A stretch of DNA of 64,000 nt from Antedon mediterranea (GCF_964355755.1 NC_092675.1:25584412-25648411), one strand, 5' to 3'. Shown: positions 12,501-61,036, numbered from the stretch's first letter. Program-made: numbers and translations. Notes: generated by a model not told the origin, from the sequence alone.

Positions 12501-14859
12501 CACAAAGTCCATACTTCAATTACATTATAATTATTATACAAATCAGAAAAGTTTGGAACATTTTTTTTCTACAGGAAGAAATGTTTTATGATTGGATTAA
12601 TCCATTGTATTTGGATTTGGAAAATCAAACCGAAATCATGGATCGTTTTCAGGATGATTCTGAAATTCAACTTGAAGGATTTTTGGCAGTAAGTACATTA
12701 AATACATTATAATATTGATCAATCTTCAGTTAAAAATACATAATAAATAATTTATTTTCAAATTGGATTTATAGAAAGATAAATATCAATCACTTTGTGA
12801 AGCACTTTCTAATCAAAAAGTAAAATGGAAAAGAATTGGTCCTGCAAACAAACGGTAAGTCATTTGAGTTTACTGTACCATAGTCACAAAGATTCATACA
12901 CTCCAAACAGATTCATCACCTTTTTATGACCATATACCAATCTTTAAGCTCTGTCTACACTATCAAACTTTATGTGACAAAAAAATGTGATGTCCCTTTA
13001 TACGGACATGATTATATATAATGCGACATTTATATAGCGCTATTTATTAGGATCAGAGCGCTTTGAATGTTAGTTGATTATTAAAATTATCTAGACTCTG
13101 AACAGAAAACTTATGTCATATCACTACCATATTTGGGCATATGACTACCATATTTAGGCACATCACGCTTTTTTTGTCAAACTAGTTTGATAGTGTGGAC
13201 ATAGATTTAGATAAATAGAGCTTCATTTGTGTTCCCAGCCAATATGAGATTGCTGAACAAGAGAGTCTGCCTCCTGTAGTCCAAGAATGTCTTTCTGTTA
13301 TGAAGTCTGAAATGATGTTTTTATTACTTTCCAACTTCACCGCATTGAAGCTTCATGCTCTTGCACCTGATCAAGATAGCAGTGATGATGAAGAAGATCT
13401 TAAAGATGACAAGCAAGATCCAGATGATGATACAGATCCTGACAAACCAGAAGACAAGGAAATAAAGGCTATTGAGGAGCCAAGTAGTAGTAATGGTAGT
13501 AACGAAACAAGCAAAACATGTAATAAGGTTAAGCAAGGTCAAAGTTCAATGAAAACTCAAAGAGAAGCATCTGACAATAAGATAAAAGACAAGACTCCAA
13601 GTTGCCATGGTGATGTTAGACGATGGCGACATGGTGATTATACATTACTTCATGACACGGACACAGAAGGATCAGAATTTGCGCTAGACGCTGTTTTGTA
13701 TTTTAACTGTAAAGGTATTTATAAAACAGTTTTTATATTAAATGTTGATGTACTTTTATTCAGATTCAGTTAAAATGTTGGTCAATCTAGATCTCCCCGA
13801 TTGTTTGAATACACACATTGGGTGGATTGTAATAAAGGTTAAGCCTAGGTCTATATTGCAATCCACCCCTGGTTTCCACATCTAGTATATAGTATAAGGT
13901 GGGTTTTGTAGTTTGAGACACACAGCGATGTTGGCAAGGATATTTAAAAGTTAATGATTATTTTTAATTTCACAGATTGGGATAATGAATATGGTGGCTT
14001 TACATCATACCTTGCTAAAGGTGAAGATGAAGAGGTAAATGTTTTATTATATTTTAATTGTAACATACAACGATTGTACTTCACTTTCAGAGCATTACAT
14101 ACATAAAGTAATGGCTCTAAGAAAGGGCTATATTTTATAGTTTTGTTTTTGACTCCTTAAGCACACACATATTGAGTAGTGTGTCATTGGAAAGCTCATT
14201 GCTATAACACATATTTCATCTATTGGACACTCTCATAGTACAAGATTTAATAATGATTATAATTTAGCGTTACCTCAAGCTTGTATTTTTTTAAGGAAAA
14301 TTTAGGATTAGTTTTGAAGGAGCAATTTTATGGAATAACATTTCAGTTGAAATTCGTAGTATTATTTATCGGAAATCATTCATAAACAAGTTAAACAATG
14401 TTTATTTGATGAATATATAGAATAATGTACGTTTAATAATGTTTGTTTTTTCTTTTCAATTCCATCCGTATTTTTTGTAATTTATATTTGTAAAGAGGGT
14501 AAAAACTCGATTAGAGAATTATCTATTTTTTTAACCTATTGCCATGCCATATATATTTACATTTTTTTTTTTGTGGCAATAAAAGTTGAATATTAGTTGA
14601 ATATACAGGTATATATTAGGCAGTCGTACAATAGGTCTATGTACTAAGATTTTTAGATGTTTTCCATAATAATATTTATTATTTATGTGTTTTTTTTCCG
14701 ATATAGTTGTTGAGTGTCACACCAAAAGAAAACTGCCTAAGTTTGGTTTATCGTGATAAAGATACCTTACGTTTTGTCAAGCATATTAATCATAAAGTTA
14801 CTGAATTGGCAGATGGTGCTACCAGCTTTCATGACATTGCATTTGTTTACTATGAATAA
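9549..14859 (+). CDS. OGFOD1: OGFOD1, 2-oxoglutarate/Fe(II) prolyl 3-hydroxylase
   Basis: OGFOD1 hydroxylates a proline of ribosomal protein uS12 and affects translation termination and stress granules. Twelve coding exons join in frame to 567 aa (human 542): 9549-9732, 9854-10005, 10371-10417, 10830-10930, 11190-11306, 11821-11912, 12184-12312, 12575-12688, 12775-12854, 13239-13714, 13976-14034, 14707-14859. The N-terminus is Lys/Ser-rich. The catalytic double-stranded beta-helix has the iron-binding HxD ([12 protein letters not shown]), the distal His (VNPVSFHQV) and the 2-oxoglutarate-binding Arg ([10 protein letters not shown]). The C-terminal non-catalytic DSBH contains [12 protein letters not shown], an Asp/Glu-rich insert in exon 10, and [16 protein letters not shown]. 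The start follows a likely acceptor and gives MNSKRGEV. Introns hold a MITE copy (12944-13205), a truncated copy near 10953 and LINE 3' ends (11425-11525, 14228-14420). Confidence 0.95.
10620..10760 (+). repeat. tRNA-derived SINE-like sequence in OGFOD1 intron 3
   Basis: The stretch beginning AGGCTCAATGATCTAGAGGC resembles a Pol III A box. About 45 bp later, GTGTTCGAGTCTC resembles a B box. This is the A-box/B-box spacing of a tRNA head, but the acceptor stem does not pair, so a tRNA-derived SINE fragment is more likely than a tRNA gene. Confidence 0.4.
10953..11070. mobile_element. Truncated copy of the TTAAGCTCTGTCTACAC MITE family
   Basis: It starts TAAGCTTTGTCTG, close to the family terminus, and contains TGTGCCCAAATATGGTAGTG, the internal motif shared with the copies at 23.8, 39.1 and 52.2 kb. 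The right terminus is not recognisable. It lies in OGFOD1 intron 4. Confidence 0.5.
11425..11525 (+). mobile_element. Probable LINE 3' tail
   Basis: The block containing GGGGTCCCAGGACATGATG ends in CGAATAAATAAATGAAATG plus a further partial repeat. A GAATAAATAAATGAAATGAAAT-type short-repeat tail is characteristic of CR1/L2-like LINE 3' ends. Only the non-coding 3' terminus is present, in OGFOD1 intron 5. Confidence 0.4.
12944..13205. mobile_element. MITE, TTAAGCTCTGTCTACAC family (262 bp)
   Basis: The left end TTAAGCTCTGTCTACAC continues into TATCAAACTTTATGTGACA. The right end is its inverted copy, with TTTGATAGTGTGGACATAG. Internal ATATCACTACCATATTTGGG matches the other family members in reverse orientation. 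The middle (about 13020-13070) carries GCGACATTTATATAGCGC and GAGCGCTTTGAATG, absent from the shorter copies, so it may be a nested insertion. It lies in OGFOD1 intron 9. Confidence 0.7.
14228..14420 (+). mobile_element. LINE 3' end, frameshifted C-terminal relic
   Basis: The peptide block [15 protein letters not shown] is followed, after a frameshift, by [19 protein letters not shown] and a basic tail ending at TAG 14418-14420. It aligns by eye with the relic at 6160-6351 (STRFTNRYNFAIPKA, KFRISFNEAQLWNNLPLVI). It lies in OGFOD1 intron 11, and the homologous 3' untranslated tail runs to about 14600. The frameshift and truncation show a dead copy. Confidence 0.6.
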
Positions 14860-19162: not shown

Positions 19163-20251
19163 TCACCCAACTGCTTCAAACACAGCAAGAAAGGCAAATC
19201 CAATAACGGTAAACAACACTTTCCAAAGGCCATCTCGTTCATTTTCAAATTCATGGTTTAATATTTCAAAAAATGTAACATAGATAAAAATGCCTGCAGC
19301 AAAAGCTTGGAGGATGGCTGAAGACACCTGCGCTACGATTCCCTGAGCTGAACTCACTCCCACTCCAAGCATTATTCCAAATGGTATCATTACAGAGAAT
19401 ATTACTCCGTATAAAATAAAAGTTTTTTTAGTAGCATGCGATTTCAACAAACTAGCACCTAAAGCGAATGCTGCTAACGACTCATGAGCTATCATAGCAA
19501 TGAGAAGATACCAGACCATTCTGGCTTCATTTTGTAACCCAAGAGCCATTCCTTCAAAAACGGAATGTATCGATAAAGCAAATAAAAGAACTAAAGATCG
19601 TAGGCTGTTTATTTGACCACCACCACCTAGGTGACTATGCCCATTTTGATCATGATTGTGATGATTCCGTGAGCTGCCATTTTGAAGCATTGTCAATCTA
19701 TCGGTTTCAGTACTAAATAGTTCATCTTCGCTTGAATGTTCTAGTCCACTACTTTCATTTAAAGGCGTTTCCTTTTTCATCATTTCGATGTCATTCGTTG
19801 CCGATTTTTTTTTCATTGTACATGCTGTCACACATTTTTCAAAAATCAGAATTAGAAAGAAACCAATTATAACTAGCAATTCACAAACAGGATAATCATG
19901 ATTAATGTGTCTTTCTTTGATAATTTGTTGTACTTGTGTCTGTGCAGCTGGAAATAAGCCTAGGAAACAGGTTGCAAGGAATACACCACCAGCTAAGCAA
20001 TTACAGAAACTTAGAATTCTACCTTTGGTACTTTGTTGAACAGGTCCAGATCTGGTCCTGCTCTTGGATCGGAAAAGGAGTATTGGAGATAAGGCACCTA
20101 GAAGTGTGGAAGCAAAGACCAGTCCCATTGATACAACTTTTAACGTCATCAAATCTGCCATGTTTGGAGTGGTGGTATTTACAATCGGCTGGAAGATCTG
20201 GGAAGCAGAAGAATGCTGAGATGTTGTGTAAGAGGACGACATCACCACCAA
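19163..20251 (-). CDS. ZIP-family zinc transporter (SLC39A1/2/3-like)
   Basis: ZIP proteins move Zn2+ and related divalent metals into the cytosol across the plasma membrane or organelle membranes. A single uninterrupted 362-codon frame encodes eight membrane segments, at about 36-60, 80-100, 121-141, 216-240, 248-270, 278-298, 306-330 and 344-360. The His-rich loop between TM3 and TM4 (NHHNHDQNGHSH, about 197-207) is a metal-binding loop. TM4 carries HSVFEGMALGLQ and TM5 HESLAAFALGASL, the family signature with the pore histidines H229 and H256. Motifs and length fit the ZIP1/2/3 (subfamily II) group; which paralogue cannot be settled by eye. Met 1 gives a ~30-residue Ser/Thr-rich extracellular N-terminus; Met 4 or Met 31 are alternatives. 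The coding region has no introns, unlike the neighbours. Confidence 0.92.
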   Translation of the reverse strand: MVVMSSSYTTSQHSSASQIFQPIVNTTTPNMADLMTLKVVSMGLVFASTLLGALSPILLFRSKSRTRSGPVQQSTKGRILSFCNCLAGGVFLATCFLGLFPAAQTQVQQIIKERHINHDYPVCELLVIIGFFLILIFEKCVTACTMKKKSATNDIEMMKKETPLNESSGLEHSSEDELFSTETDRLTMLQNGSSRNHHNHDQNGHSHLGGGGQINSLRSLVLLFALSIHSVFEGMALGLQNEARMVWYLLIAMIAHESLAAFALGASLLKSHATKKTFILYGVIFSVMIPFGIMLGVGVSSAQGIVAQVSSAILQAFAAGIFIYVTFFEILNHEFENERDGLWKVLFTVIGFAFLAVFEAVG

Positions 20252-21142
20252 TGTTGTCTTCTGGCTGTTGTTTATTGAATCTTCTTTTTAAATGATCATA
20301 CTTGTAAGCTGTTATTCAAATCTATGAATGGCAATAAAAAATAGCTAATATAATAAAAATTGTTTGTGTGGAAAATAGTAATATTTATGTTTGTGTATAA
20401 ACTTAGCCAACGCAATATTACAGGACTTTTTATTAATAGTAGAAGTAGGCCCTAGTAGGGTGGGCCTCTAGTGTATTATGAAATACAAAATTTCAAATTG
20501 CCTAAACTAAATAAATACTTGCTTGTATTGTACAATTTAAAACTGAAGAGCTAAATTAAAATTGTACTAGGCCTAGGCTATGTATTGTAATTTTAAAAAA
20601 GCTTTATGCCTACTACCTCAGTAACATCGATTCGATCCTAGGCTAGGCCCTTATCTTATGTCTATGATGAGGCTAGAGTACTACTACTATGCCTAGGCTA
20701 GCTGCGCCTATATAGTATAAGCCTACTAGCTAGGCCTAGACCTAGCTTAGGCTATACGTACTACTTGTAGGCCTACTGCCTCGAAGCTCATATCTAGCCT
20801 ATTTTATAGGTCTGGTGGTTTACATAATTCATACACCTAACGTGTTCACCTTATGCAATCAACAAATATCTTGACCTGCATGTATGAATTGTATTATTAA
20901 AAATAATAAGTTGACGTAGCAGCCTCCACGAAACCAACTTTGACGAAACCAAAACAAGTAGTCTAATTAGCATAGCGCCCTCAGTTTTAGCACGACCACC
21001 ACACACTGCGGCGGGCCGATCAAAGATTTGAGGTACAGTATAATAATGTTATAAAAAACTTTACTTGACAACCACTTTTGGATCAGTGGCAACACACTCA
21101 GTAGTGGTGCAGTAAATGTAAAACATTTAATAAATTAAAAAA
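20252..21142. other. ZIP 5' flank, AGGCCTA-rich
   Basis: Upstream of the ZIP start. From about 20560 to 20800 the palindrome AGGCCT/TAGGCCTA and the related CTAGGC occur many times. No exon was identified, although a 5' non-coding exon is possible. Confidence 0.45.
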
Positions 21143-25415: not shown

Positions 25416-28400
25416 TCAGATACTACCTGGTGTTAGCGATTTCTCTTTTGAAGTTTCTTCTACCAATAACTCTACAAAGATACGTATAAGAATACAACTT
25501 TTTGGAAATGGTATATTATTAGTCCCGACACTATGCAATTCAGAATATATGTGAATGGCGGTTTCTATTATTTTATATTTATTACATCATTTTGTGTTAT
25601 CAAGCAGCCTGGATGTTCAACAAGTTGACATTTCAATTAATAAACAAAATACTATTTCCATACATGGGCAATTTATTCGATGATAAATTATTCCAATATC
25701 CAACGATCGATTACCTATTGGCATATTTTTCAAAAAGTGCCCTCTAAATGTGAACTTAGCCTACCTGTCGTTATGAAATATATCGGGGTTGATTCATCAC
25801 TTTCTCCAAAATCGTTGGTAGAAGAGACAGTAGCTTTATAGCTCCAATCAGGGTGAAGATTCTCAATGTAATATTCGTAAACAGATGATTTCGTAGGAAT
25901 AGCACCCTTACTTATATATTTTATGACTTGTTGACCTTCCTTTTAAAAACAATTAAAATTATGTTATTTATGTTATATACGAAGCACAAGCACATAGGCA
26001 TATTCAAACAATTATATTTCAATTATTGGTTTTGTATTTATACTTTTACTTGAAGTTGAACATTTTGTATCTTTCGGTTGGAAATTACCAGTAGGCCTAA
26101 AGACTAAAGACGAAAACACGACAATTCATTAACATTAAATACAAACTTACCCCTGTTTGCCAAACATATTGATATTTGATGATGAATCCATTTATTGGAA
26201 TAACATTTCGATGACTTTCTTCAACCCTTTTCGACGCTTTCCATCGCAACAAATAACGAGTAGACCACGAACTGATGACAGAGGAAACTATTGTAGGCGT
26301 CGTTGGTGTTCCTTATTACAATAAAATGCAAAAGAAAAAATGTTAGCAAAATAGAACTCATTTGACGATGTTGCCTTCAGAAATCATTTATTTTCAGTGT
26401 AAAAGTATAGTACAAGATGAGAAATGCAAGGAAGCGAATCGATCCTTCCTCATTCAGAAATTATATTAATGAAAATAAAATAAGAACAAAATGTTAAATG
26501 CTGCATTGTTCCTGTTGTCACCTTTACACTTACCGGTTAATACAATGTTCACATCTGTATACCCAACATCATTGGTTACCCTGCAAGTGAAGTTTCCATA
26601 ATGCCTTGCTTCTATTTTGGATATACACAGCCTAAAAGGATCCAATACAATATATTTAAATAGAAGACTTCTATACTCAGTCCAAATAGCACACATTCAT
26701 GTTTTGCTGATAAAGTCAAAATCTTCGAAACTTGTAAATTTTGAATAGGTTTATGCAATGTTGAGTTAGAAGATTCAACATGGCAAACAATGCATCTCTT
26801 TTCATGCGTACATAACAAAAATAAAGAGGAAATAGAATATTCTGTTGACAGAGGCCTTTTGATGTTCATTCTAGAAATCAAAAGCTTGCCTGTGATGTAG
26901 GCCTACTGTAGTTGTACCTGTTTTGATTTTTCTGAATTTTAGTTCTTTTTTTGTGTGTGCACCTCCCCAATGCCCAACTAGCCACTGTAGTCTGACGACA
27001 TTTTGTATTAATTTTGTAAAGCACAGCGGAGAAGATAGAATCTAAGATGTGCATGTACGTCTTCTTTTAAGACGCCACCGGATTCAGAGTTGTGTACTCA
27101 ATGTGATTACCTTGTTCGCTTTTCGTCACCAGTTATTGAAATACCTGGTTGACGATTTGAAAGCACCGTAGTGTTCTGAAACCATGTAACTGCATCAGGT
27201 ACGGGAAAAGCGTCGATACAACAGGCCATGCAAACATATCTTCCAATACCACTACGATAGAGCTGTCGGCTAGGTTTTATTCGCGGCTTATCTGCAGTAA
27301 TAATACTAGTTTAGGTTATCTAATTCAATATTTAATTCATCTATACTGTTTTAATGAATATTAAAAAGGTCTCTATAATGAGTGTGATGTTCTTAAAAGT
27401 GTTGATGGAAAAAAACAGGCCATTGTAAATACATTATTGCCACCAATAGTGTACAAATACGTCCCTAATTTGAATCCAAATGATCAATACCGGTACTACT
27501 AGCTAGACAAATATACATTTCCACATATCTAGAAGAGTAGTTATTCGAGACACTTAACACGTACATTTGATTATAAGTTTGACAATCTGCCTGTCACCTT
27601 CGGCGTCGTTTAGGTGGTTAGCTGCTGTGCATACATAATCACCAGTATCCTCTACTTTTACGTTCCAAATTCGTGCTACACCTTGACCACAGTCTTTGAA
27701 TCGTGTATCATTGAGTTCTTTTTGTAGGTTTGTCCGATGCCAAGTGACTGTCGGTGACGGCTTACCGTCTGCTATACAGAACAACACTACGTCTCTTGAC
27801 TCTTTGAAATACCTTGCGTTTGGATCCTTTGAACCAAGAGTCCGAGTGCTCATCGGTTCAATTTGAATAATTTTTCCAGGAGCTGAAAATATAAGAGCAG
27901 TTTCCATCTCGATATTAAAACTTTACGATTGAATACTATGCTAAGAAATACTTCGCAACCCACCATCACACTATACAGCTGATATCTCTAGCGACAATAA
28001 GCAGCTTGCACTATCGCTTTTTCTGACAGCAAACTTCATCCCATATTGGATAATGTATGCGTATCTACTCGTCTGCCTATTTTTCTTTTACTCTTTTTTC
28101 AATGGTTTAAGCGTGGTTCCCACTAGACGTAATTGACGCAAGGTGCTGTATTGCATAATCACAAGTGGGAACCGACGACGCAATAGTACTGCAAACATCG
28201 CAGGTTTGAGTTCATGCAGGCGGGGGACAAACACAATGATTGAAAGGGCATTTTCTTACGGTGCGTGTCTACTCTTTCTCTTTTAATCTTGTTTCAATGT
28301 TTTACTATGGATTAATGAATGAATAATGAATATTCATTAATCCATGGGTTTACTAACTCAATTTCGTAATTAACCGGGACTTTCGGGTTATTACTAAAAC

Positions 28401-40800: not shown

Positions 40801-42005
40801 GCCTATCTGAGGTTTACTGTATGTCAGCTCTTTGAGTGATTTTTTTCTTTTTTGAATATGAGAGACATAGTTATTTACCAATAACTACTTATATTATTAA
40901 AGGTTAAAGAATATTCTTGAACTGCCTCCTGTTTTAATTGACAAATACAATGCCATCCAAGTTGTCCACTATGGCAGACATGGTCACTATAACGCTCACC
41001 AAGATTCTGGATCCACTGACCAACCTTGCTGCCATCTTCACAGCAACAAGAAATGCAGCATCTGTCGATACTTAACGTTCATGCTTTATTTGAATGACGT
41101 TGAGGAGGGCGGTGAGACTGCATTCCCCATCGCTAACAACGAGACATTTAATATTCATGTAAGTGTATCAGTTGTAATGAATTTGCTTCTCAACACCATA
41201 TTGTCAATATGGTCTGTTCAAGATCATTCATTCATTTGTAAATCTTCTAATAGTAACCCACACTCTAATAGTAACCTCCTTCTAATAGTAACCCCCCCCC
41301 CTTCTAATAGTAACCTCCTTCTAATAGTAACCCCCCCCCTTCTAATAGTAACCCCCTTCTAATTGTAACCCCCCCCCCTTCTAATTGTAACCCACACTTT
41401 AATAGTAACCCCTTCTAATAGTAACCCCCACGCCTTCTAATAGTAACCCACACTCTAATAGTAACCCACACTCTAATAGTACCCCCCACCCTTCTAATAG
41501 TAACCCACACTCTAATAGTAACCCCCCCCCCCCCACTTCTAATAGTAACCCACACTCTAATAAGTGTGGGTTACTAATAGAAGGGAGATTACTATTAGAG
41601 TGAGGGTTACTATTAGAAGATTTACGGTGACATATTATAGCTCTCCTTCTATCTCTCTTCTCCAACCAACTTCTCCTGGTGGAACTGTGTATTTTAGCAT
41701 TTTTCATGTTGTATCATTGAACATTGATTTTGTTAATATTATTTGCTATCATATTGTAGACTTTCCGCCAAAGCGGCAACACCCATCTAAACAGCCGATG
41801 CAACCAGGCTAACCTAAGAGTGAAACCAGAGCTAGGAAAAGCTGTTATCTGGTACAATCACTTAGTTGATGAAGAGACTGGATGGCTAGGGGATTTGGAT
41901 GATTACACATGGCACGGAGGATGTCCAGTTACGAAGGGAACAAAATGGATCATGAATCGTTGGATTAATGTGAGTCCGGATAGAGAAATCGATCTCAGGA
42001 TATAA
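37869..42005 (+). CDS. P4HTM: P4HTM-like ER prolyl 4-hydroxylase with EF-hands
   Basis: An Fe(II)/2-oxoglutarate dioxygenase of the transmembrane prolyl 4-hydroxylase family (HIF-P4H-like, ER). Eight exons join to 396 aa: 37869-38057, 38509-38590, 38897-39051, 39494-39555, 40024-40058, 40515-40680, 40903-41158, 41760-42005. The N-terminus has a hydrophobic stretch ([13 protein letters not shown], about 9-21) that reads as a signal peptide. Two EF-hand-like loops follow: [12 protein letters not shown] and DPNKDDIVTKDE. The catalytic domain has the HxD iron ligands (NAHQDSGS), Cys-rich [33 protein letters not shown], and the distal His and 2-oxoglutarate Lys ([14 protein letters not shown]). 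Human P4HTM shows the same order with RYLTVLLYLN and GNLRVKP. It is shorter than human P4HTM (about 500 aa), lacking the long N- and C-terminal extensions. It ends DREIDLRI with no KDEL. Confidence 0.92.
38640..38820. repeat. Dispersed 'AACAAAGTGTC..TTTAATAGTGTCC' repeats
   Basis: AACAAAGTGTCGACC and TTTAATAGTGTCCC occur twice in tandem within P4HTM intron 2, then a more diverged third copy. Related phrases (CCCTATTAAGAGGACAC) occur near 11940 and 55665. This looks like a degenerate mobile element family with short tandem units. Confidence 0.4.
39070..39226. mobile_element. MITE, TTAAGCTCTGTCTACAC family (157 bp)
   Basis: Complete copy in P4HTM intron 3, starting 18 bp after exon 3. Left end TTAAGTTCTGTCTACACTAT and right end ATAGTGTAGACAGAGCTTAA are near-perfect inverted copies that include TTAA at both extremes, so the target site is probably TTAA or TA. 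The interior has CAAATATGGTAGTATTGC and CAAATATGATAGTGATATG. Confidence 0.8.
41240..41630 (+). repeat. Minisatellite, TTCTAATAGTAACCC unit, with inverted end
   Basis: About 20 copies of a 15-18-bp unit, TTCTAATAGTAACCC or CTCTAATAGTAACCCACA with C-runs of variable length, fill P4HTM intron 7. At about 41563 the orientation flips: TGTGGGTTACTAATAGAAG is followed by ATTACTATTAGAGTGAGGG, so the array ends in a hairpin-capable palindrome. Confidence 0.85.
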
Positions 42006-48433: not shown

Positions 48434-51400
48434 ATGATGACCAACTCTGAAGCGAATACCGAGGAAATTGATAAGGAGAAAAATGAAGAAGAAACTCCTA
48501 AAGTTTCGTCGAAAAAGAGAAGTATGTTTAGATAGTTATTGTCGATAATATCCGTAATTTTGTGAAGATGATTTGCAGCTCCAATATGGCACCACGCCCT
48601 GTCGATTTAGAAGAGTGCTGTTGTTGTTTCTAGGCCTTCTTCTCGCGCTCTGCCTGCTGTGTGTTGTTTGTCCTGGGGATGTAAGCTTTGGAATAAATTC
48701 TTAAAAATCAATAATACAGGTTCTAAATTGTAATTAAGTGGAATATTTATACTTGTTTAACATTATTTTCGAACAATCATCTTCTACATTCAACGATTTG
48801 TTCCATGCATGATGAGAGAAATGTGGCGTGTGTTGAACACTCGCTGTCGATATAACACAGCGCGTGTTGTTCGTTTTGATGGCCATCGTTCGGGGTCGTT
48901 CTGCAATTATAAAAAACGCAGGCAAGGCCTAGGTCCTTTCCTATGTTACACAAAAACACACACGGTAATATGAAAAGATAGATTAATAACATTACTATTG
49001 TTTACGGAATTCTTAAAAAAAAGTTAATACTACACAGTAGGCCTAACCTAGGCTATTTTTACTCGGGGTACCCGAGTCTAGTACTTACTCATTTTCTCCT
49101 TCTCTTCCTCCATCTGGACACTATTGAGTAAAAAGTGCGATTTTTAAAGTACTACTCCTCCCTTATTCGTTATAGTATTGAGCTGGGATTTGGCATGAAC
49201 ATACTACAGGGACATGTCCTCAAAGCTATAGAGCCGGATTTTTAATTTTTTGTTAATTAATTTGTTTAATTAAGAAGCCACAATGTGTGACACACACCAC
49301 AGCGTTATGTAGTTATATGGTTATATGCGGATTCTTGGCGTAGTGGTTATCACGTTTGCTTAACACGCAGAAGGTACCTGGTTCGAGCCCGGACGAAACC
49401 TTTTTTTTTAACTTTATGGTGAAAAGTACTGTATACGCAATATGATAATTATACAGAGTATATCTTATTTTTATTATTTTTTAAAATACTATTGTGTAAT
49501 CGGTAATTATCACTTTTACACATGTTTATTTTGCTTTGTGCTTATTACCATTTATTTGTAATTTAAATGGATTAAAAAACTTTCTGTAACCCACATTTTT
49601 AATGTAAGAGGTTTCGTAGTGTAGTGGTTGTCAAGTCTGCTTAACACGCAGAAGGTCCCGGTTCGAGCCCTGGCGAAACCTATTTTCTTTACTTTCTAAC
49701 TGTATACGTCTGTATACAGCTTCTTTCGCTGTACCCCGAGTATTGCACATTCGTGCTTGTTAGTATAGTAGAGTTTTGATCAATTATAATACATTTTTTT
49801 ATGTAAATGCAATACTTTCAGCTTCAACTGCTTCTTGTTACGTATAATTAATAATAAATATAGGCCTAGGCTTATTTATGTTTTTTTATACTGAAATAAA
49901 TAGATTAATACAGATCGACGTTCATTCATTCATGCTGAATATATATATTTTTTTATTTTATTGTTGTAATGTTTAGGTTTACTGTAGTTGTATATATAAT
50001 AATTTAGTGGGCTACTGCAGGTACCATATTACTTGGTAAAGTCCTTAGAGACGGAATTTGGCAAAAATTATCAGGTGGGATTATAAATTGATTGCAAACA
50101 ATAGATTTATTACCAAAATCTTGTGTCTAAATTTAATCGATCACAAAATACTCTGAACTACTGTTTTAATTGTTGTTTATTGTACCATTTTTCATGCTGA
50201 AATGTGAAAATCTTTAGTATTATAATCATTTTGTTTTTGCTATAATAATTAATATTAGTAGGGACACTATTTCACACCATTAACCAATTAACATTATAAA
50301 TGTTAAAAATCGCTGCGCAATAATTTGTTTTACAGCAGTACAGTACTGGACCATGATTCAAATAAAAGTTAGAAAGCTAATTGCTGTTGAATGCTTCTTT
50401 TACAGAGATTGATACAGTTGGCGTAAACCAACTAGGAGGGTCATATGCAAATGGCCGACCTCTTCCTCCCACCATCCGTCAACATATTGTTGAACTTGCT
50501 CAGCAGGGTGTTCGACCGTGCGATATTTCGCGTCAACTGAAGGTTTCCCACGGCTGCGTCAGTAAGATTTTAGTAAGGTATGGCTTATTCAACACATATT
50601 TAGTCTGTAGTATTTTTAAAGCAATTTTACACGCACATTAATTTTCACTATTTTTTTGAACGAACCAAAATTCCAAAACCAAACGCATTTGGACATTGCC
50701 AACATTGGTTTCCTTCATGAGTAGGCTTCAGTACTTCTTTAAGCACCCAAACTAAACCGTTAATATGTGTCCTGTGATAGAACAATCAAAAAATAAATCA
50801 AGCAATACATTACTACAGTATAACCACCTACAAATTAACCTTTTTGTATTAATGGGTGGTGTCACTCAACCCAGCCTAATTTATACACAGCAACTCCCCA
50901 CCCCACCCTTTAAAGAGCCACACTTACTGTATATCCCTAGCTAGTGCATCCCTAATAGTGACTATTATTAAATATGACCATTCTATTTTTATACCTGTAC
51001 ATTCTGATGTTATTCTGTTGCACTTACTGATATTAAAATTAATGAATATTGGCAATTTATCGTACTTTATATTGCTTGCTTGGATATATGATAAATGTGT
51101 TAATATTTCCCAGGTATTATGAAACGGGGTCAATTAAGCCTGGGGTCATAGGAGGAAGCAAACCCAAAGTGGCGACGCCAGAGGTTGTTACCAAAATCGG
51201 AAATTACAAGATTGAAAATCCAACAATCTTTGCGTGGGAAATCCGAGAACAACTACTGAAGGAGAAGATATGCACAGCAGAGAATGTACCAAGCGTTAGT
51301 TCAATCAATAGGTATAAATTTTTTATTATAATTGAAATAAATCTTTTTATTTTAATTCATGTAAAAAAAAAATATTTAGTAGTTTAATAGTATGAAATGA

Positions 51401-54400
51401 AAAGAGCATCCAATTATAAGATTAAAATTTATTGTTTTAAGTGTTTAAAAAAAAAAATAAATAAATTGACTAAAATATGAGAATTAATAAAAATTCATTA
51501 ATGTATTACAGTGTAAACAATTAATTCTCTTTTATAGTTTCAATGCATTATTATACAGAACCCTATCCTATTTAACCTAATTATTATTATTATTATTATT
51601 GTTATATCATTTTCTTTCATTAGCATTTTAATATTATACACAGTATAATATGTACTATTGATGAATATTATTAGCATTTAATATTTTGAATAATTAAAAA
51701 CACATTTTCTTCCAGAGAATAATGACTCTTTAATTTAAGTTGAAAATAGAGAAATCACATTATGATGATTGTCATTAAGGAAAGCAATCAGTTTTAAAAT
51801 TATTCTCTAATTTGTAAATTGATTATTACGTCAAATCATTCAGTTGAATTGTAAATTAGCTTATTCACACATTTTACATTGACTAACCTTTTGCTAGTCT
51901 ATGACTACAATAGTGCAGGTGATCAACAGGATATTACAGTATCACATTATCACCCTTATTTTTATATTTTATCTGCATCACCATCAAAATAATAATATAC
52001 AAAAATGAATATTTATTAGTTTAATGGGAGAATATTTGTTGAAGAAGAAAATTGTTGAAGTTAAAAGATTGAAGGAAGTAAATAGGGGGTCCACTTTGCA
52101 AGTGGGTTTCCTTTTGCCTACAACAGTGCACCATAATTATTTTAAGAGCATGTAATAGCACGTTCAAATATGGTAGTGATATGCCCAAATATGGTAGTGA
52201 TATGCCCAAATATGGTAGTGATATGCCCAAATATGGTAGTGATATGCCCAAATATGGTAGTGATATGATATCATCATGTCCTTATATGGGCACATCACAT
52301 TTTTGTCACATAAAGTTTGATAGTGTAGACAGAGCTTAAGAGCATGGGATACAGTATAGTACTGTAGATGTTCAATCTTGAAAATGAGAGAAAATATGTA
52401 AACAATTGACTGAAATTAATCAATCAATACTGTAGTTCCATAGAAATTATAATCTTCTGATAAATTGTTAGATTTTGATATTTTTGCCAACTATTTTTAT
52501 GAATAATAAAACATTAATTAATGACTAAACATTTCACATTACCGTACATTAGACAATGTCAGAAAATGTAAATCGACCCAAAGTAAATTTTTAACATCTT
52601 CCTTGTAAAATGTAACATTATTTTATTTGAAAAAAATCAAATAATACAGTACTGTACTGTATAGCATTTTTTTTTGCATTATAAACAATTTTCAATGATT
52701 TTTTTTCTTTCTTCAGTTAACATTTTAAAATTGAACATATTTGAATAATTGAGGCTTTTCAACATTTATCAAATCCAAGAAAGATTGTATAAATGGAGCA
52801 GCAGCCTGCTCTCATTTATAATTAAATACACATGTGTATATTGTATACAATACTAGCACTTCTACATGTACAGTAGTAGCAGTGACATTTTTAGAATATT
52901 TTATGTAAACTCACAATAAATGCAGGTAGAATGTTTTTTTAGTTAATTAAAGTTAAACAGTACTACTGTAACAATTACTTTGTAATAATAATATTTCAAA
53001 CTTTGATTACTGCAAAACATGTATGACATTTGTAAACATTTTTTCAGTTAGTTTTTTTACATAGTCACTGATTACAAATAGATTAATTATTCTTTAAATA
53101 TTGCATTCTAGTTTTAAAATGAGATATCTAGCTTGTAGTATGAACTGTTTGTTTATAAAATCATAATAATATAATAATAATCATCTTATTAATGCATGAT
53201 GGTAACATGGTAGTATCTCACATGTAAATCAGGTGATTATGTGTAAGTTTTGCAGTATACGTTATTATCAGTTTTTTATTTTACAACAAGTTATTTTTTG
53301 TATTAAAGAATATTACGAGGCAAGATCATTGGTGGAGATGAACCATCTCCAAGGCAGAGTGGAGCATCGGCTGTCCCCATCACAAAAGAGCAGCAAGCTA
53401 TTGCAAGTAACGCTAGTATGACAGTAAACGCACTTGCTCACATGAGCCAGGACGAGGCCAAGAAGTATGCAAGCCTCCTTGCAGCCATGAGCATGAATAT
53501 CAACCCACAAAGCTTTCAACAGCAACAGGTTAATAACGGCGTAGTAAACATAGTTCCTTCACCGTACTCGATTCATAGTCTGCTTGGGATACAAGGACAA
53601 CCAATTAAGCAAGAGCCATCAGAAGGTAAGTCATCACTTTATACCAAGATTGATGCATTATTCACTGTACTCTCGTTGAAAAAACAAATATGGTGACTGT
53701 AAAAACACACCAAATAATATTAGATACATTAAAACTATTTTTTAGTCTTTATTTGTCAATTTTTTGTTTAATTTAAATTTTATCTTTAGACATTTTTATT
53801 TCTATATTCAATTCTGATAACATTTAATTGACATAATTATTTAAATACCATTATTGAATAAATGTTTTATTGATATTACAAAAAAATATTACACTTTATC
53901 TGTTCTATAACAACTCTTGCAAATCAGTTATTAACCTTAGCAACAAAAAGGTTAGCAACCGGATACCTAGTTAATTAAACAACAATGCAAAGAAAATAAT
54001 TTGATTGTTATGGTTGAGTGATCCTAAGTTTTCTCTTAGAAACATGATAGGACAGTAGTTCCTTTTTTCTCTCAACCATGTTCGTCTTGTAAGGAATAAA
54101 TTAGACCACTAACTAAAACTAAAAACAGTTCCTTAAACGCAAATCAATTTTAAGACAAAATTGTATTGAGCAAGAAAGCTTGAAATAAAGAGGTGCTAGG
54201 TCAAATGTAATACATAAGGCCTGAGAATATTTTGAATTAAAGATGATTTTATTGGTAAAAATATTGTTTTTATTGGAATATATGAAAAGAAAAGTAAACC
54301 AATTACTGTATGTTCATTTATACATTTATACTCCAAATAATGAAATACTGTACTGTATACTTCATTCTGATAAATCCATTATTTTGACAGTGATCATTAC

Positions 54401-57400
54401 TATGTACTACAATATGTCATTGAAAATGGAAAGCTGCCTTAATAATGTTGCCGATTTTTCTTAGAATTCCCAATTGTGTTTCACAAGTATTTAATACTAT
54501 AGACTTAAACATAATGTATACAAAATATTTACAATATTCATTGCATTTGTCTATAATTGCAGTACTGTATAGTAATAAAAAAATTGTATGATAATCAATG
54601 AAAATTTCCCATTCCTGTTACTTCCTTTGCTATGGCAACCATTGCATCAACGTTGAATCTAATATGCATTATTGACTTTCATATTCTGTCAGCATTATGC
54701 GCTGCCTAGTCAATAAACTACACTGTTTTCTTGTTTGCCAACATCCGCAGGCAAATATTTTTCTACATTTGTACACAATTTTATTGTTGTTATTTTAACA
54801 TTTCTGTGTAGAATACTATAATACAAAGATTATATACAGTAGCTTGTATGTCTGTCTTGTAACAGATGTATTTTTGTTTATAATTAAATGATTAGAATGA
54901 AAGATGGTATCAACATGAAATGAAAAAGAAATGAAAAAAAAATGGATAGATTTGAAAGCTAGAATTAATACTGTTAATACAGTATACAGTACACAAAATT
55001 TGTCTTTTCAAAACTTTAATTAACGACTTATCTAATAATAATAATAAATATATTTATCTAACCTAGCCTTATTACAAATAATTTTGATAAACTGAGAGAA
55101 ATTGTGCAAAATGGTCAAATTTATTTTAACATGTATTATTATTATAACTTTTTTTATGCAAGAAAGACATTTCTTATTATTTATATATGAGAAATTGTTT
55201 ATTTTTCATTAAGAAAATACATTTATTTTATACATGGATTACAAGACTTACCAGAAATTGAGAGTTAATTTTTTCAGTTTTTGAATAAAGTTATGTATAT
55301 ACAGTATATCGAATCTGCAGACAGTACTGTTTCGATCTTATTAGATCTCAGCTCAGGTTTCGAAATGAAATATTATATATACTTTATCGTTTTGATTTAG
55401 CCTTTTGCTTTTTTTTGTATCTCCATTGAGATTCAGCCACTGATACCCACAGCATTGTCATTTTTTTTAGTATTTTGCCATTAGATTTACAGTACAGTAG
55501 TACGTAGTAATCATAAAACAGAGGTTTACAATAGAATTTAAACATTGATTTGCATTTAGATTTTGTTTTATTGCTACAAAGTCTTTTTTAAAGGATTTGC
55601 TTTGTGATTGACTTTATATCAAATGTGTATGGTATACAGTACAACACCTCCTTTGGCACACCCCTATTAAGAGGACACTTGAAAAAACGAACAAGGAGAA
55701 ATATAAAATGTTTATATATGAGAAGCTTTGTTAACTCCCAAAGGTGTACCCTTAATAGGAATTCTTCTGTATTTAAATGGTTGTGGTAAATAAAATATGG
55801 AGTAAAATTATAATATACTGTATGTATGTTACAAATAGAGACAAAATGTAAAACGAACCTTTTTGTTTTATCCTCATGTATCATTCTCTAACCAATTGTA
55901 CGTATTTTGCAGATGAAAAAGCTACAGCTATTGCTATCACTGAAATGGCGAAAGAAAGCAAAGATGGAAAGTTTGATGCCGTTGAGAAAGCATACCAGAT
56001 TGCAACCAACAGTATTGGAGAAAGCGACATCTCTGCACTCGCCAATGTTGCGAGTCTTGTCAGTAACTTACAGGTACTTTCACTGGAAATTTTGTTAGTA
56101 ATTTAATAGTTTTTTTTAGTTATGGGTAAATAGACATTTTGTAATTTAAAGGACATTTTAAAATGTCAGAATGACTACAGGGAGCTAAGAGTTTTTTAAT
56201 TTAGTGTTTATTAATAGTAGAACATCCTTCAGCAATTGACAAATGGTTCCGTTATTGGAAGATAGACATTTTTTAATTTAAAGAACATTTTAAAATGTCA
56301 GAATGACTAGCTACTGTAAGGTTTTTATTTGAGTGTTTATTAAACACAGTAGAACTTCCCTCATCACTCAACAAAGTGTTCCATTATTGGAGTTATAAAT
56401 ATATTGCTCTTGTTAATGTCACAGAGTATCCCCTTGATATGGCTTTACTCTCTACTGTAATAACTAAAAAGCAATTTATAATTGAAATTTATTAAAGAAA
56501 TAATTCTGGACAAAAAAGCCTTTAAACAACACCAGACCAAAACTCTATCTTTTAAATACTATATTGTATATATTTTCAGGTACCTGTCACAGCCCAAAAT
56601 ATTGCAGTGCCTGTCATAACTCATGTTACTTCGTTACAGCATCAGCAAAATGCTAATATTCTCACCACAGACAAAGCAAGAGAAATCGTCGTCCCACTGT
56701 CTTCAGGTAACCCAATCAATTTAACTGAATTCATTTATTTTTAGGTTGTGCTGTTAAAAAATTTGTATTTGGGAAAATTTAAAACTATTTACTGTAGAGT
56801 ATTAAGAGCAACAGCAATCTTGTGTGCATATGATAAACAATTTGTAAATATAAATTTCAGTTCAAACAAGTTTGGCAAACGACAGTGCAACATTGACAGA
56901 GCTGCAACCAGCCGAGGTGTTAACCCTCCAGGCACCTGCTGTACCACAGTCCTTAGCAACAACCAAGCCTAACGAAGCTGCTAAACACCCATTACCAGGT
57001 ATGTTAAGTTCTTATTGACTTCTTAAGTAACCTGTATTGGAAAATAAACTGGCAGCCTGATGTATCAGAGATCGTCAGCCGGATAGGTACTGGTGATAAA
57101 CACTACACATGTCTGGCCCTTCTTTGTATAAACAATTGCATATGTTCAAAAAGAGTATGGGACTATCTCTTGTGTTCTGAAATGGTATAATGCAGATGTA
57201 ATGTTATTCTTATCAATATGGAGCTTTCGAATCATGTTGCATGAAAGGACATTGGTATGACCTTCCTCCAATCGAAAGGTCCCCTAATGGGAAACCATAG
57301 TTCATATAATTACTGGCAATGTAGATTTGTGCAAACTTCAGATTGAACCTTCTTGGCTAAAAACATCAAATTCACAAATTGTAATTAAACTGTAGACAGC

Positions 57401-59194
57401 TGTTTTATAATAAAGACACCATTAATATTTTTAAAAATATTCTTTTTCATTTCCCATAGTAAGATTAATCAGTATATTATCTTATTATAAATCTGGATAT
57501 ATTTTATATTTATCGTTATTCCTTTGTTGTAATTAATTGCAGACATTAAAATATAATTTCAGAATTTGATAAGCAGTTCTTTATATATGATTATTTATAT
57601 GATTAAAATTGTAATCAAAAGATTGATTATGTGGATTGAGATTGTATCTGTTTTTTTTCTAGTTGCTACATACAAGGCTATAGCACCTCGACCAGGATTT
57701 AATGTCACACACCCATCTACCATAAACCAGACGAATGGGAATGTAGCCATTTCAAGCGCAATGCTGTCTACCACAGCAGGTAAGGAGAAAAAACATCTTT
57801 TGAATAAATATACAAATAAAGAATGTTTATGAGTTTGATTGAAAACTATTTTATGAAATTCTCTTTCAATAAATAAAAATATTCTCCTCATCCAATACAA
57901 AACCTTATTATTTGTTACTAATACACCTACTGTTCTAAAGAACAGTTTTATTGAATACACTGCTTCCATGTCTCAAAATGGATTATATATGGCAAACACT
58001 GCAGAATTCTAAAAATAAACGTGCAATATAACTATTGTATATAACTATTAAATACAAATTTTAGCATACAATAGCACATGATACAAAATTAACCAATAAT
58101 GAAACATTTAGTTTTGTTGTACTTAATAAATTACAAAAAATACCTATATCCAAATTATGCTTTCTTATGAGAAATTTATTTCCCCACCATAAAATAGCTA
58201 TCATAATATATTTTTTGTTCCAGCTGACCAATCTGCTCCTCTTCCTTCAATGAGGGTGGCATTCCCTACATCAGTAGGTAATACAGTTGAATTAACAACA
58301 GTTCCAAGTCAGTTGCAGACATCACTGGCACCGCATCAAACCTTAGTGCCACAGTCTATTACAACATCTCAAGGCATTCCGTTATCATCTCTAGGACACA
58401 CCACAGTTCCTCTACAAACAGTCACCTCATTGCCTGGTTCTGTCAGATATGCACCTGGTACAATCTCAGCTCCACAGATGGTTACCTTTCAACAACTGGC
58501 TGCCATTCAAGCTGCTCTACCACCAGGCACCATTGCAGCCCACGCAGCTACGTTGCAACCTTTGCCAACAATGCAGCAGACCTCAACGCTCTTGCAGACG
58601 GTAGTGCCTCAAAATACGATGCCTCAGACAACTACTTTTTTGCAAACAGCAGTGCCACAGAATATTGCACAACAGACATCTGCTCTTCTGCAGACAGCAT
58701 TGACACAAAGCAATGTACCAACAGGCTCTGTCACATTACCTCAACAGACTGTTCCGATTTCAGTTGCAACACAGGGAATTATGCAAGATCAGCGACAAGT
58801 TCTTCAGCAAGTTCCTTTGTCACAGCCAACAACTCTACAGCCGCAACCGGTTGCTCTGGCACAAGCACCTCAGCAGGAACAAGTTGCTACCCCAGTAGTC
58901 GCCCAATCACAAATTGTACTGCAACCACAAGTTATCACCACAGAGGTTGTTGAAGAGGTTGAAGTACAAGAGGTTATCGAAATACAAGAGGTTGTCACAA
59001 CACCAGAAGTAACGGTATCTTCCCAGCCAAACATGGAGACGAATTCAGAGCACAGTGTCACCCAATCCACCCCTCAAGAGCTTGTGACAACAGAAGCACC
59101 AGTTGTATCGATGGAAATTGAGCTGTCAGAAACAGATGCACCGATGCAAATGGTAGAGGTTGTCACATCTTCACCAACAACTACTGCATCATAA
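48434..59194 (+). CDS. Pax transcription factor, Pax2/5/8-like paired domain
   Basis: Nine exons join in frame to 762 aa: 48434-48521, 50406-50577, 51114-51311, 53309-53625, 55913-56073, 56580-56706, 56861-56998, 57663-57779, 58224-59194. A short acidic/basic leader is followed by a complete paired domain (about 35-160): [70 protein letters not shown]. The introns after KILVR and after SSINR are at the positions known from vertebrate Pax2/5/8 genes. The recognition-helix Q..H residues and [15 protein letters not shown] also favour Pax2/5/8. An octapeptide, YSIHSLLG (239-246), is the Groucho-binding motif, and IKQEP nearby fits a SUMO site. No homeodomain, full or partial, follows. Instead there is ~500 residues rich in Gln, Thr, Val and Pro, ending in an acidic [14 protein letters not shown] stretch. 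A divergent PaxA/PoxN-like origin cannot be excluded. Confidence 0.9.
49329..49400 (+). tRNA. tRNA-Val(AAC)-like, probably a pseudogene
   Basis: GGCGTAGTGGTTATCACG matches the D arm and A box of animal tRNA-Val, the anticodon loop TTAACAC gives AAC, and GGTTCGAGCCC is a B box. The anticodon stem (TTTGC/GCAGA) pairs with one G-U. The acceptor stem GGATTCT/CGAAACC has two mismatches, and the T stem has one. A run of nine T follows directly, as for a Pol III terminator. Mismatches make it more likely a decayed copy. It lies in Pax intron 1 on the sense strand. Confidence 0.5.
49610..49680 (+). tRNA. tRNA-Val(AAC)
   Basis: The acceptor stem GGTTTCG/CGAAACC pairs perfectly. GTAGTGTAGTGGTTGTCA is the D arm and A box, the anticodon stem TCTGC/GCAGA is perfect with loop TTAACAC (AAC), and GGTTCGAGCCC is the B box. 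The T stem CCCGG/CCTGG has one mismatch. It closely resembles vertebrate tRNA-Val(AAC) and carries no intron. The downstream T-rich run is interrupted (TATTTTCTTT). It is the better of two copies 281 bp apart. Confidence 0.65.
51312..53308 (+). other. Pax intron 3
   Basis: 2-kb intron between the second paired-domain exon and the exon encoding the paired-domain end and octapeptide. It holds the expanded MITE copy at 52142-52346 and otherwise AT-rich sequence. Confidence 0.6.
52142..52346. mobile_element. MITE copy with five-fold internal 21-bp repeat
   Basis: The right end GATAGTGTAGACAGAGCTTA is the family terminus. The left terminus is missing: sequence passes from TTAAGAGCATG (52142-52152) into CAAATATGGTAGTGATATGCC, a 21-bp unit repeated five times to about 52268. 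The same 11-bp TTAAGAGCATG recurs at 52336-52346, directly after the right end. The internal unit occurs only once or twice in the other copies, so it was amplified here. Confidence 0.75.
53626..55912 (+). other. Pax intron 4
   Basis: 2.3-kb intron. Contains the inverted copy of the CCAAAGGCAAATTACTG repeat (55381-55488) and a 'CCCTATTAAGAGGACAC' repeat near 55665. No nested gene was recognised. Confidence 0.6.
55381..55488 (-). mobile_element. CCAAAGGCAAATTACTG repeat, inverted copy
   Basis: TTTGTATCTCCATTGAGATT, CAGCCACTGATACCCACAGC and TTTTAGTATTTTGCCATTAG are the reverse complement of the copies at 36.88 and 63.69 kb. It includes the ACTTTATCGTTTTGATTTAG part also seen at 63.78 kb. The hammerhead-like end is not recognisable here. 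Confidence 0.6.
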
Positions 59195-60496
59195 CAGAGG
59201 AAGTCACATGAGTGATCATTTTACTTAATAATTCCCAAATTTTTGATAATAACTTATAAATAAAAAAAAATATTTATTTCTTTATTTTAACTAGAACTAG
59301 CTCAGAAAATTTAAATTCCTTGTAAGTGAACACCTACAATAATGTTAAAAATATATAAACGTTCTGTTAACTGTCAGTGTACATTATCTTGAAAATTTTA
59401 AAAGCAATAATTGAGAAATCAGATTTGTTCTAACAAGCGTATTAGTCAATTTATTGAAGACAGAACAAGGATGACTATCTTCATTTTACATATCTTCACA
59501 GTTTGTATTATGAAGTAATTATATAACACCAATATTAATTCTACAATACATAAAGTGTATACTTATACAAATAAATAAAATAGATTAAAATGTAAAGCCT
59601 GGTTTTCATCGAAATCTATGCATGCAGTCACATTGGGCTACAAAATAAAATACATTCGTTTTTTTTGTTGGAACAGTAGTTTGGTGAAGAATAACCAGTA
59701 ATGCAATGATTTGCATAATGCAGACCTATGCATAGTCAATGCTATTCTTGTTGAACGTGATAGCAATTCATACTCACATTTATGAAGCATCTCTAATGAA
59801 ATCATATTAAGAACACCAATTTTAAGAAAACCAGGCTCTGTATTCGCTGTATATTTCGCTTGTCTTTATTCAATAAGTAATAATATATTGGTAGCCTGTA
59901 AGCATCACAATAATGTGTATATTTCTCTCGTATTTTTTAACCGTGTCAACTTTATGATAAACCTTAACTCTAATCTGTATATTTTGAATTTCTAGGTTTT
60001 AAAGGAAAAAATGGTGAAAAACACATTTCTTTAAACAAGATTTTCTTATTAAAATATTCACTCTTTGATTGTAATAAGAAATTTTTAATTTAGAAATATG
60101 TATATATCCTTCTTGGTCTTATAGTAATTACCCATATTCCTTAATAACTTTTAAACCATTTGAGTATATGCTAATTCACAGTAGGGTTGTTGATGCATAT
60201 TTCTGCTGAGCGTAGCTACATTTTGGTGTATTTTCACCAACATTTGCCAGCACTTTCTAATGGTGTTTTTTTAAGTGTAACAGGAAGAAACTGAAATAAA
60301 GTTTAATGAACATAGTTTCCTTACTTTTATATTATTTTTTAAAATAGAATATGACATTAATAATTGTATACGTATCTTTCAAATGAATGGATTTATTTTG
60401 ACCTTTTTGCTATTATACTTGTATCTTTGGTATGATTTAAATGAATGAAGTTGTTTTCTTGTTTATAATTTACATATTTATAGTCAATTTGAATAT
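59195..60496. other. Pax 3' UTR and flank
   Basis: AATAAA signals occur at about 59259 and 60297, so the transcript could end at either. The MITE-like element at 59595-59838 lies inside. No other coding sequence was seen. Confidence 0.5.
59595..59838. mobile_element. Possible MITE with AAGCCTGGTTTTC ends
   Basis: Left end AAGCCTGGTTTTCATCG and right end AAGAAAACCAGGCTC are inverted copies for about 12-14 bp. Internal GAAATCTATGCATGCAG and GACCTATGCATAGTC are a second, weaker inverted pair. No coding capacity. The terminal AAGCCTG is shared with the element at 62711. Confidence 0.45.
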
Positions 60497-61036
60497 ACAT
60501 ACATTACTGAATTTAACGTAAATCTATGTAAATGCTGGTTACCGTTTAATTTCTAAGGAAAAAACATTATATTTTATGCATAAAATATGCTAGTATTATA
60601 GTGTTCAACATTACCGTAATGACATCAACTTAACGATAACTTTGCAAACCTTATTAACATAATATGTCAACCCTATACATACATTACTGAATTTAACTTA
60701 AATCTATGTAAATGCTGGTTACCGTTTAATATCTAAGGAAAAAACTTTATATTTTATGCATAAAATATGCTAGTATTATAGTGTTCAACATTACCGTAAT
60801 GACATCAACTTAACGATAACTTTGCAAACCTTATTAACATAATATGTCAACCCTATACATACATTACTGAATTTAACTTAAATCTATGTAAATGCTGGTT
60901 ACCGTTTAATATCTAAGGAAAAAACTTTATATTTTATGCATAAAATATGCTAGTATTATAGTGTTCAACATTACCGTAATGACATCAACTTAACGATAAC
61001 TTTGCAAACCTTATTAACATAATATGTCAACCCTAT
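60497..61036 (+). repeat. 180-bp tandem repeat, three copies
   Basis: Three head-to-tail copies with an exact 180-bp period (60497-60676, 60677-60856, 60857-61036). Each contains CATACATTACTGAATTTAAC, TTATGCATAAAATATGCTAG and TAACATAATATGTCAACCC. Copies 2 and 3 are virtually identical; copy 1 differs at a few positions (for example TAACGTAAAT against TAACTTAAAT, and a changed base in AATTTCTAAGG against AATATCTAAGG). This indicates recent amplification. Confidence 0.9.

Follow-up and report, generated by a model that had tools for sequence, protein, structure and literature searches.

A homeodomain-free Pax gene with a long Gln/Thr/Val-rich tail in the crinoid Antedon mediterranea, probably a divergent paralogue of Pax2/5/8

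Results

We analysed a 64,000-nucleotide stretch of the Antedon mediterranea genome (GCF_964355755.1 NC_092675.1:25584412-25648411; hereafter the window, with positions counted from its first letter), which carries a Pax-family gene at 48434-59194 on the plus strand. An earlier note on this DNA had proposed nine exons closing to 762 residues, and the model could be rebuilt exactly: every intron is GT-AG, and the exons join in frame to a 762-residue protein followed by a TAA stop. The required frame is open in all nine exons and is the single open frame in eight of them; consensus splice sites and frame continuity are found at all eight introns. Moreover, G+C content is 36-50% in the exons versus 24-33% in the introns, and exon 9 lies inside a 333-codon open stretch (among 200 random 64-kb sequences matched in local dinucleotide composition, the longest had 188 codons). 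The window gene is a real, intact member of the Pax family.

All nine exons lie on the plus strand. Exon 1 (48434..48521) encodes residues 1-29, an acidic/basic N-terminus with KKRK, and is followed by a phase 1 intron; it starts at the first in-frame ATG (48434) downstream of an in-frame stop, and is defined by splice model and frame, with no backing from a paralogue or elsewhere. Exon 2 (50406..50577) encodes the N-terminal (PAI) half of the paired domain and ends in phase 2 within the Arg of KILVR/YYETG (the slash marks the intron). Exon 3 (51114..51311; 198 bp) encodes the linker of the paired domain and the greater part of its C-terminal (RED) half, ending in phase 2 within the Arg of SSINR/I. 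The end of the paired domain, the following linker, an octapeptide and an IKQE SUMO-type motif lie in exon 4 (53309..53625), which ends in phase 1. Exon 5 (55913..56073; phase 1 in, 0 out) encodes 54 residues rich in Ala, Ser, Lys and Glu. The tail continues through exons 6 (56580..56706; phase 0 in, 1 out), 7 (56861..56998; 138 bp, phase 1 in and out) and 8 (57663..57779; phase 1 in and out) to exon 9 (58224..59194), whose 323 residues up to the TAA stop make up a proposed activation domain.

The paired domain (residues 35-158) is complete, as had been claimed: the Pfam model matches residues 35-156 with an E value of 1.7e-65, covering all but three of its 125 positions. Its best relatives among solved structures (PDB) are Pax5 (6e-62), then Pax8, Pax6 and Paired. 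The assembly used for comparison (354 Mb) has seven small contigs besides eleven large ones of 22-41 Mb, a number in keeping with the chromosomes of a crinoid; the window lies on contig C6. A paired-domain search gave ten matches in seven genes, which by translation read as Pax1/9 (C10), Pax6 (C7), PoxN (C9), a canonical Pax2/5/8 and the window gene (both C6), and two further genes on C8, one eyegone-like with a homeodomain (15.32 Mb) and one PoxN-like or Pax-alpha-like (10.50 Mb). No Pax3/7 was seen with the paired-domain model in the genome stretches searched. The window paired domain is 77.4% identical to Pax5, 76.6% to the canonical Antedon Pax2/5/8, 68.5-71% to Pax6 (71.0% for the solved Pax6) and 63-76% to all others, among them Antedon PoxN (75.8%) and Antedon Pax1/9 (70.2%). 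The linker within the paired domain is identical to that of Pax5. At paired-domain positions 42, 44 and 47, which we take to be those separating Pax2/5/8 from Pax6 specificity, the window protein carries Gln, Lys and His, and Pax2/5/8 carries Gln, Arg and His; two of the three thus agree, and the third differs by a conservative change. Unusual substitutions had been noted in this domain; S42 and Y43 (in GGSYANG) and K75 do occur in none of the nine other paired domains compared, but A44 is ordinary.

Linker and octapeptide together span residues 159-258. The octapeptide YSIHSLLG (53565..53588, plus strand) matches the Pax2/5/8 pattern Y[ST]IxxILG save for L instead of I at position 6, and its likeness to the YSIAGILG of the canonical Antedon gene was equalled in 50 of 100,000 linker shuffles, in agreement with the earlier identification. 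In both genes, the octapeptide exon is followed by a phase 1 intron. The sequence PIKQEP after the octapeptide contains the sole psi-K-x-E motif of the protein. Structure prediction for the linker was of low confidence (predicted local distance difference test score, pLDDT, 52), with two probable helices.

The earlier note had described about 500 residues of low-complexity sequence after the octapeptide. This was borne out, with the limits corrected to residues 259-762 (504 residues), which contain 14% Thr, 12% Gln, 11% Val, 11% Ala and 1.6% aromatic residues and lack Cys and Trp. Exon 9 contains 15% Thr, 15% Gln, 12% Val, 11% Pro and only 0.9% Lys plus Arg. Pfam detected no domain in the tail. 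The Pax2_C profile gave no match to the window protein at E values up to 10; the canonical Antedon Pax2/5/8 gave none either, so this result is uninformative, and the profile matched nowhere in the whole genome. The tail, including exon 9, is single-copy in the genome, and with no second copy to draw on, its borrowing from another gene was rejected. No relatives were found among viral and prokaryote contigs, as expected of an animal gene.

No homeodomain was found in the exons or in any intron, which upholds the earlier reading. Intron 4 (53626-55912) had been named as a place where a homeodomain exon might have been overlooked. Pfam found none there in three frames, a weak test in that Pfam is also blind to the remnant in the canonical Antedon Pax2/5/8. 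A permissive paired (prd)-class profile, run without filters and built from one Antedon homeodomain and five others, found no homeodomain across 48-60 kb (best place -0.5 bits, spanning a stop); in the control it ranked the canonical Pax2/5/8 remnant first, at 4.5 bits. We therefore rejected the idea that intron 4 hides a homeodomain exon. With the human Pax5 partial homeodomain as query, weak matches were obtained elsewhere only. Exon 5 shares its phases (1 in, 0 out) with the partial-homeodomain exon of the canonical gene, but the two have no detectable sequence similarity (p 0.36), and exon 5 was rejected as a recognisable decayed homeodomain.

The canonical Pax2/5/8, for which the earlier note had suggested searching, lies at C6:9.71-9.72 Mb on the minus strand, 16 Mb from the window gene on the same chromosome. 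Rebuilt exon by exon, it contains a paired domain, the octapeptide YSIAGILG, a partial-homeodomain exon (SNRSAFTSDQIKAFERGTHFPSDYYVRDESTKLEMNDSRTQ), a poly-Gln exon and later exons up to YNEWQRFTNP, an end that resembles the Pax5 C-terminus. Its paired domain is 89.5% identical to Pax5 and 87.1% to Pax8. The model lacks a located first exon, and its homeodomain exon has two candidate donors, GTTGGT following SRTQ and GTAAGA following SDYY, both phase 0.

More importantly, the window gene and the canonical Pax2/5/8 share their gene structure. The introns at KILxR/YYETG and SSINR/I interrupt the same codons in phase 2 in these two genes only among the Antedon Pax genes read; Antedon Pax6, PoxN and Pax1/9 differ in this respect. 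The phase series 1,2,2,1,0,1,1,1 is common to both genes through exon 8, and exons 3 (198 bp) and 7 (138 bp) are equal in length. Intron 1 agrees in phase, but its position relative to the paired domain is about two codons off. With usual phase frequencies, chance agreement of the four tail-intron phases is expected in roughly 1 to 2% of cases. In the tail, exons 6 (p 0.02) and 7 (p 0.014; SATLTELQP versus SSTLTVLQP) weakly resemble their counterparts.

A phylogeny of the paired domain, which had been proposed as a means of placing the gene, gave a partial answer. The best tree sets the window gene beside Pax2/5/8 (support 78/79), on a long branch and outside the bilaterian Pax2/5/8 sampled. 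In the approximately unbiased (AU) test, grouping with a C8 Pax gene was rejected (p 0.046); groupings with PoxN (p 0.16) and with Pax6 (p 0.20) were not. Holding the window gene and the canonical Antedon Pax2/5/8 together was not rejected either (p 0.18), nor was grouping with Pax1/9 (likelihood 6.9 units lower, p 0.10).

Several other features of the locus and of the Pax set were observed. Intron 1 contains two tRNA-Val (AAC) genes on the sense strand (49329-49401 and 49609-49682), of which the second alone is above the Rfam gathering score (47.4 bits). Intron 3 contains a perfect 21-bp minisatellite of 4.9 copies (52165-52267), and three 180-bp tandem copies, 99% identical, lie just downstream of the gene (60494-61036). 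Neighbouring genes in the window are an OGFOD1-like C-terminus (13219-13770, plus strand), a single-exon ZIP zinc transporter (19166-20287, minus strand), an immunoglobulin-domain exon (27557-27922, minus strand) and a P4HTM-like 2OG-Fe(II) oxygenase exon (40901-41359, plus strand). Elsewhere in the genome, the Pax6 paired domain lies, as far as IPSVS, in a single large exon; this layout has been reported for echinoderms and hemichordates (PMC4488758). The Pax gene at C8:10490000-10499900 (minus strand) has a one-exon paired domain and an octapeptide-like FSVENILG; it has a long branch, groups with PoxN (88/89) and possibly belongs to the deuterostome Pax-alpha family. The eyegone-like gene with a homeodomain (C8:15313000-15322900, minus strand) has an upstream exon, HYSELSRQLMMSQECFSKLFGKK, that resembles a degenerate paired-domain PAI half.

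Discussion

The Pax gene described here is best read as a full-length Pax2/5/8 paralogue that has evolved quickly, with sea urchin paxB as its probable orthologue and a canonical Pax2/5/8 still present in the same animal; we put the probability of this reading at about 0.74. The earlier note had left open whether the gene is a Pax2/5/8 without its homeodomain remnant or a separate lineage. We favour the former because both paired-domain introns and the intron-phase series match the canonical Antedon Pax2/5/8, and we regard gene structure as stronger evidence of this kinship than the trees. The window protein also resembles Pax2/5/8 proteins (Pax2, Pax5, Pax8; Drosophila shaven/sparkling) in its paired domain (76-77% identity) and in an octapeptide starting with YSI. 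It differs from them in lacking a partial homeodomain and the basic KRKR stretch after the octapeptide, and in having the 504-residue tail and Lys in place of Arg at position 44 of the paired domain; it also gave no Pax2_C match, as did the canonical gene. The premise that Pax2/5/8 proteins keep a partial homeodomain was too general and holds best for chordates, since lophotrochozoan surveys conflict: one found the partial homeodomain missing from every lophotrochozoan Pax2/5/8 (PMC5333810), and another reported it in molluscan Pax2/5/8 (PMC4625944).

The likeness to paxB is that of a second echinoderm Pax gene beside pax2/5/8. Sea urchin paxB was reportedly first described by Czerny et al. 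in 1997. Paracentrotus lividus has separate pax2/5/8 (AF016884) and paxB (AF016885) genes (PMC9231221), and SpPaxB has been named as a ciliary-band gene (PMC1929154). Orthology between the window gene and paxB is probable.

Several points weigh against the reading as a Pax2/5/8 paralogue. The tree support of 78/79 is below significance, the AU test leaves the PoxN and Pax6 groupings standing, and the larger tree, with seven reference paired domains that were not drawn from sequence records, is only a lead. The PoxN paired domain of the same animal is nearly as close (75.8%) as those of Pax2/5/8 (75.8-77.4%). The similarity of the tail exons to their canonical counterparts is marginal in exons 6 and 7 and absent in exons 5 and 8; a mis-paired comparison, of the canonical exon 9 with window exon 5, scores as well (p 0.009), so sequence alone is no proof that the tail descends from Pax2/5/8. 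Both gene models are predictions from genomic sequence, and the paxB comparison drew on reports that the gene exists.

A rival reading is that the gene belongs to a separate ancient Pax lineage, for example near PoxN, that has kept an ancestral Pax gene structure and is no Pax2/5/8 duplicate. The near-equal PoxN identity, the standing of the PoxN and Pax6 groupings and a branch outside all sampled Pax2/5/8 would fit such a lineage, but the paired-domain introns and later phases match Pax2/5/8 and no other Antedon Pax gene, and grouping with a C8 Pax gene was rejected; we consider it improbable. The window protein shares with PoxN/PaxA the lack of a homeodomain and, with Antedon PoxN, the high paired-domain identity, but it reads RQLKVSHGC and GVIGGSK where the PoxN type has RQLLVSHGC (L at position 44) and GSIGGSK. 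Antedon PoxN is moreover a separate gene, whose single paired-domain intron lies elsewhere, in SKPKV/ATP. Pax1/9 (Pox meso) likewise combines a paired domain and octapeptide with no homeodomain, but it is only 70% identical, and the separate Antedon Pax1/9 has a one-exon paired domain and an HTVNDILAF-type octapeptide; the window octapeptide is of Pax2/5/8 type and not HSVTDILG-like.

A recent, crinoid-only duplication of Pax2/5/8, unrelated to paxB, would fit the position of both copies on C6, 16 Mb apart. We doubt it, because the canonical copy is closer to Pax5 and Pax8 than to the window gene, and the best tree places the window gene outside bilaterian Pax2/5/8, even if a tree with the two Antedon genes together was not rejected. 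It is very unlikely that exons 5-9 belong to another gene and that the Pax gene proper stops at exon 4. In favour of this, neither a domain nor a database relative can be recognised in the tail. Against it, the frames run on over all eight introns, whose splice sites fit the consensus, the phases agree with those of the C-terminal exons in the canonical Pax2/5/8, and exon 4 contains no stop ahead of its donor.

For a Pax2/5/8 paralogue, the earlier note had suggested gain of a long activation domain; we think it more likely that the C-terminal exons were inherited and then drifted. From the gene structure, the tail probably represents the old Pax2/5/8 C-terminal exons, drifted and with the last one enlarged, rather than a foreign addition. 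The homeodomain remnant would most simply have been lost by decay in place, since exon 5 holds the position and phases of the canonical partial-homeodomain exon.

The protein may act as a switch between repression and activation. With Gln42, His47, Lys for Arg at position 44 and a linker that it shares unchanged with Pax5, the paired domain would bind Pax2/5/8-type sites. The octapeptide of the Pax family binds Groucho corepressors (PMC4488758); judging from the family, YSIHSLLG could recruit Groucho/TLE and thereby mediate repression. The IKQE within PIKQEP is a candidate site for SUMO-dependent damping (synergy control), and the Gln/Thr/Val-rich tail may serve as an Sp1-like activation domain. 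The window protein would then repress or activate Pax2/5/8-like targets and do so without the contacts made by a homeodomain remnant.

We also raise, tentatively and as an unlikely option, a Pax family that predates bilaterian Pax2/5/8 or runs parallel to it (as sister to the whole of it, not nested within it), surviving in echinoderms and a few others, in which a conserved long Gln-rich activation domain replaces the homeodomain remnant. If this were true, echinoderms would split the work of Pax2/5/8 between homeodomain-bearing and homeodomain-free proteins.

Taken together, the window gene is a divergent member of a known Pax family. As a probable Pax2/5/8 duplicate, it would have kept its paired domain, its octapeptide and the structure of the gene, whereas the homeodomain remnant and C-terminus were overwritten, which makes it and the canonical copy a paired test of what these two regions do. 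Comparison with paxB and the canonical copy would reveal whether an animal with a second copy can do without the homeodomain remnant, and how the two genes divide their roles.

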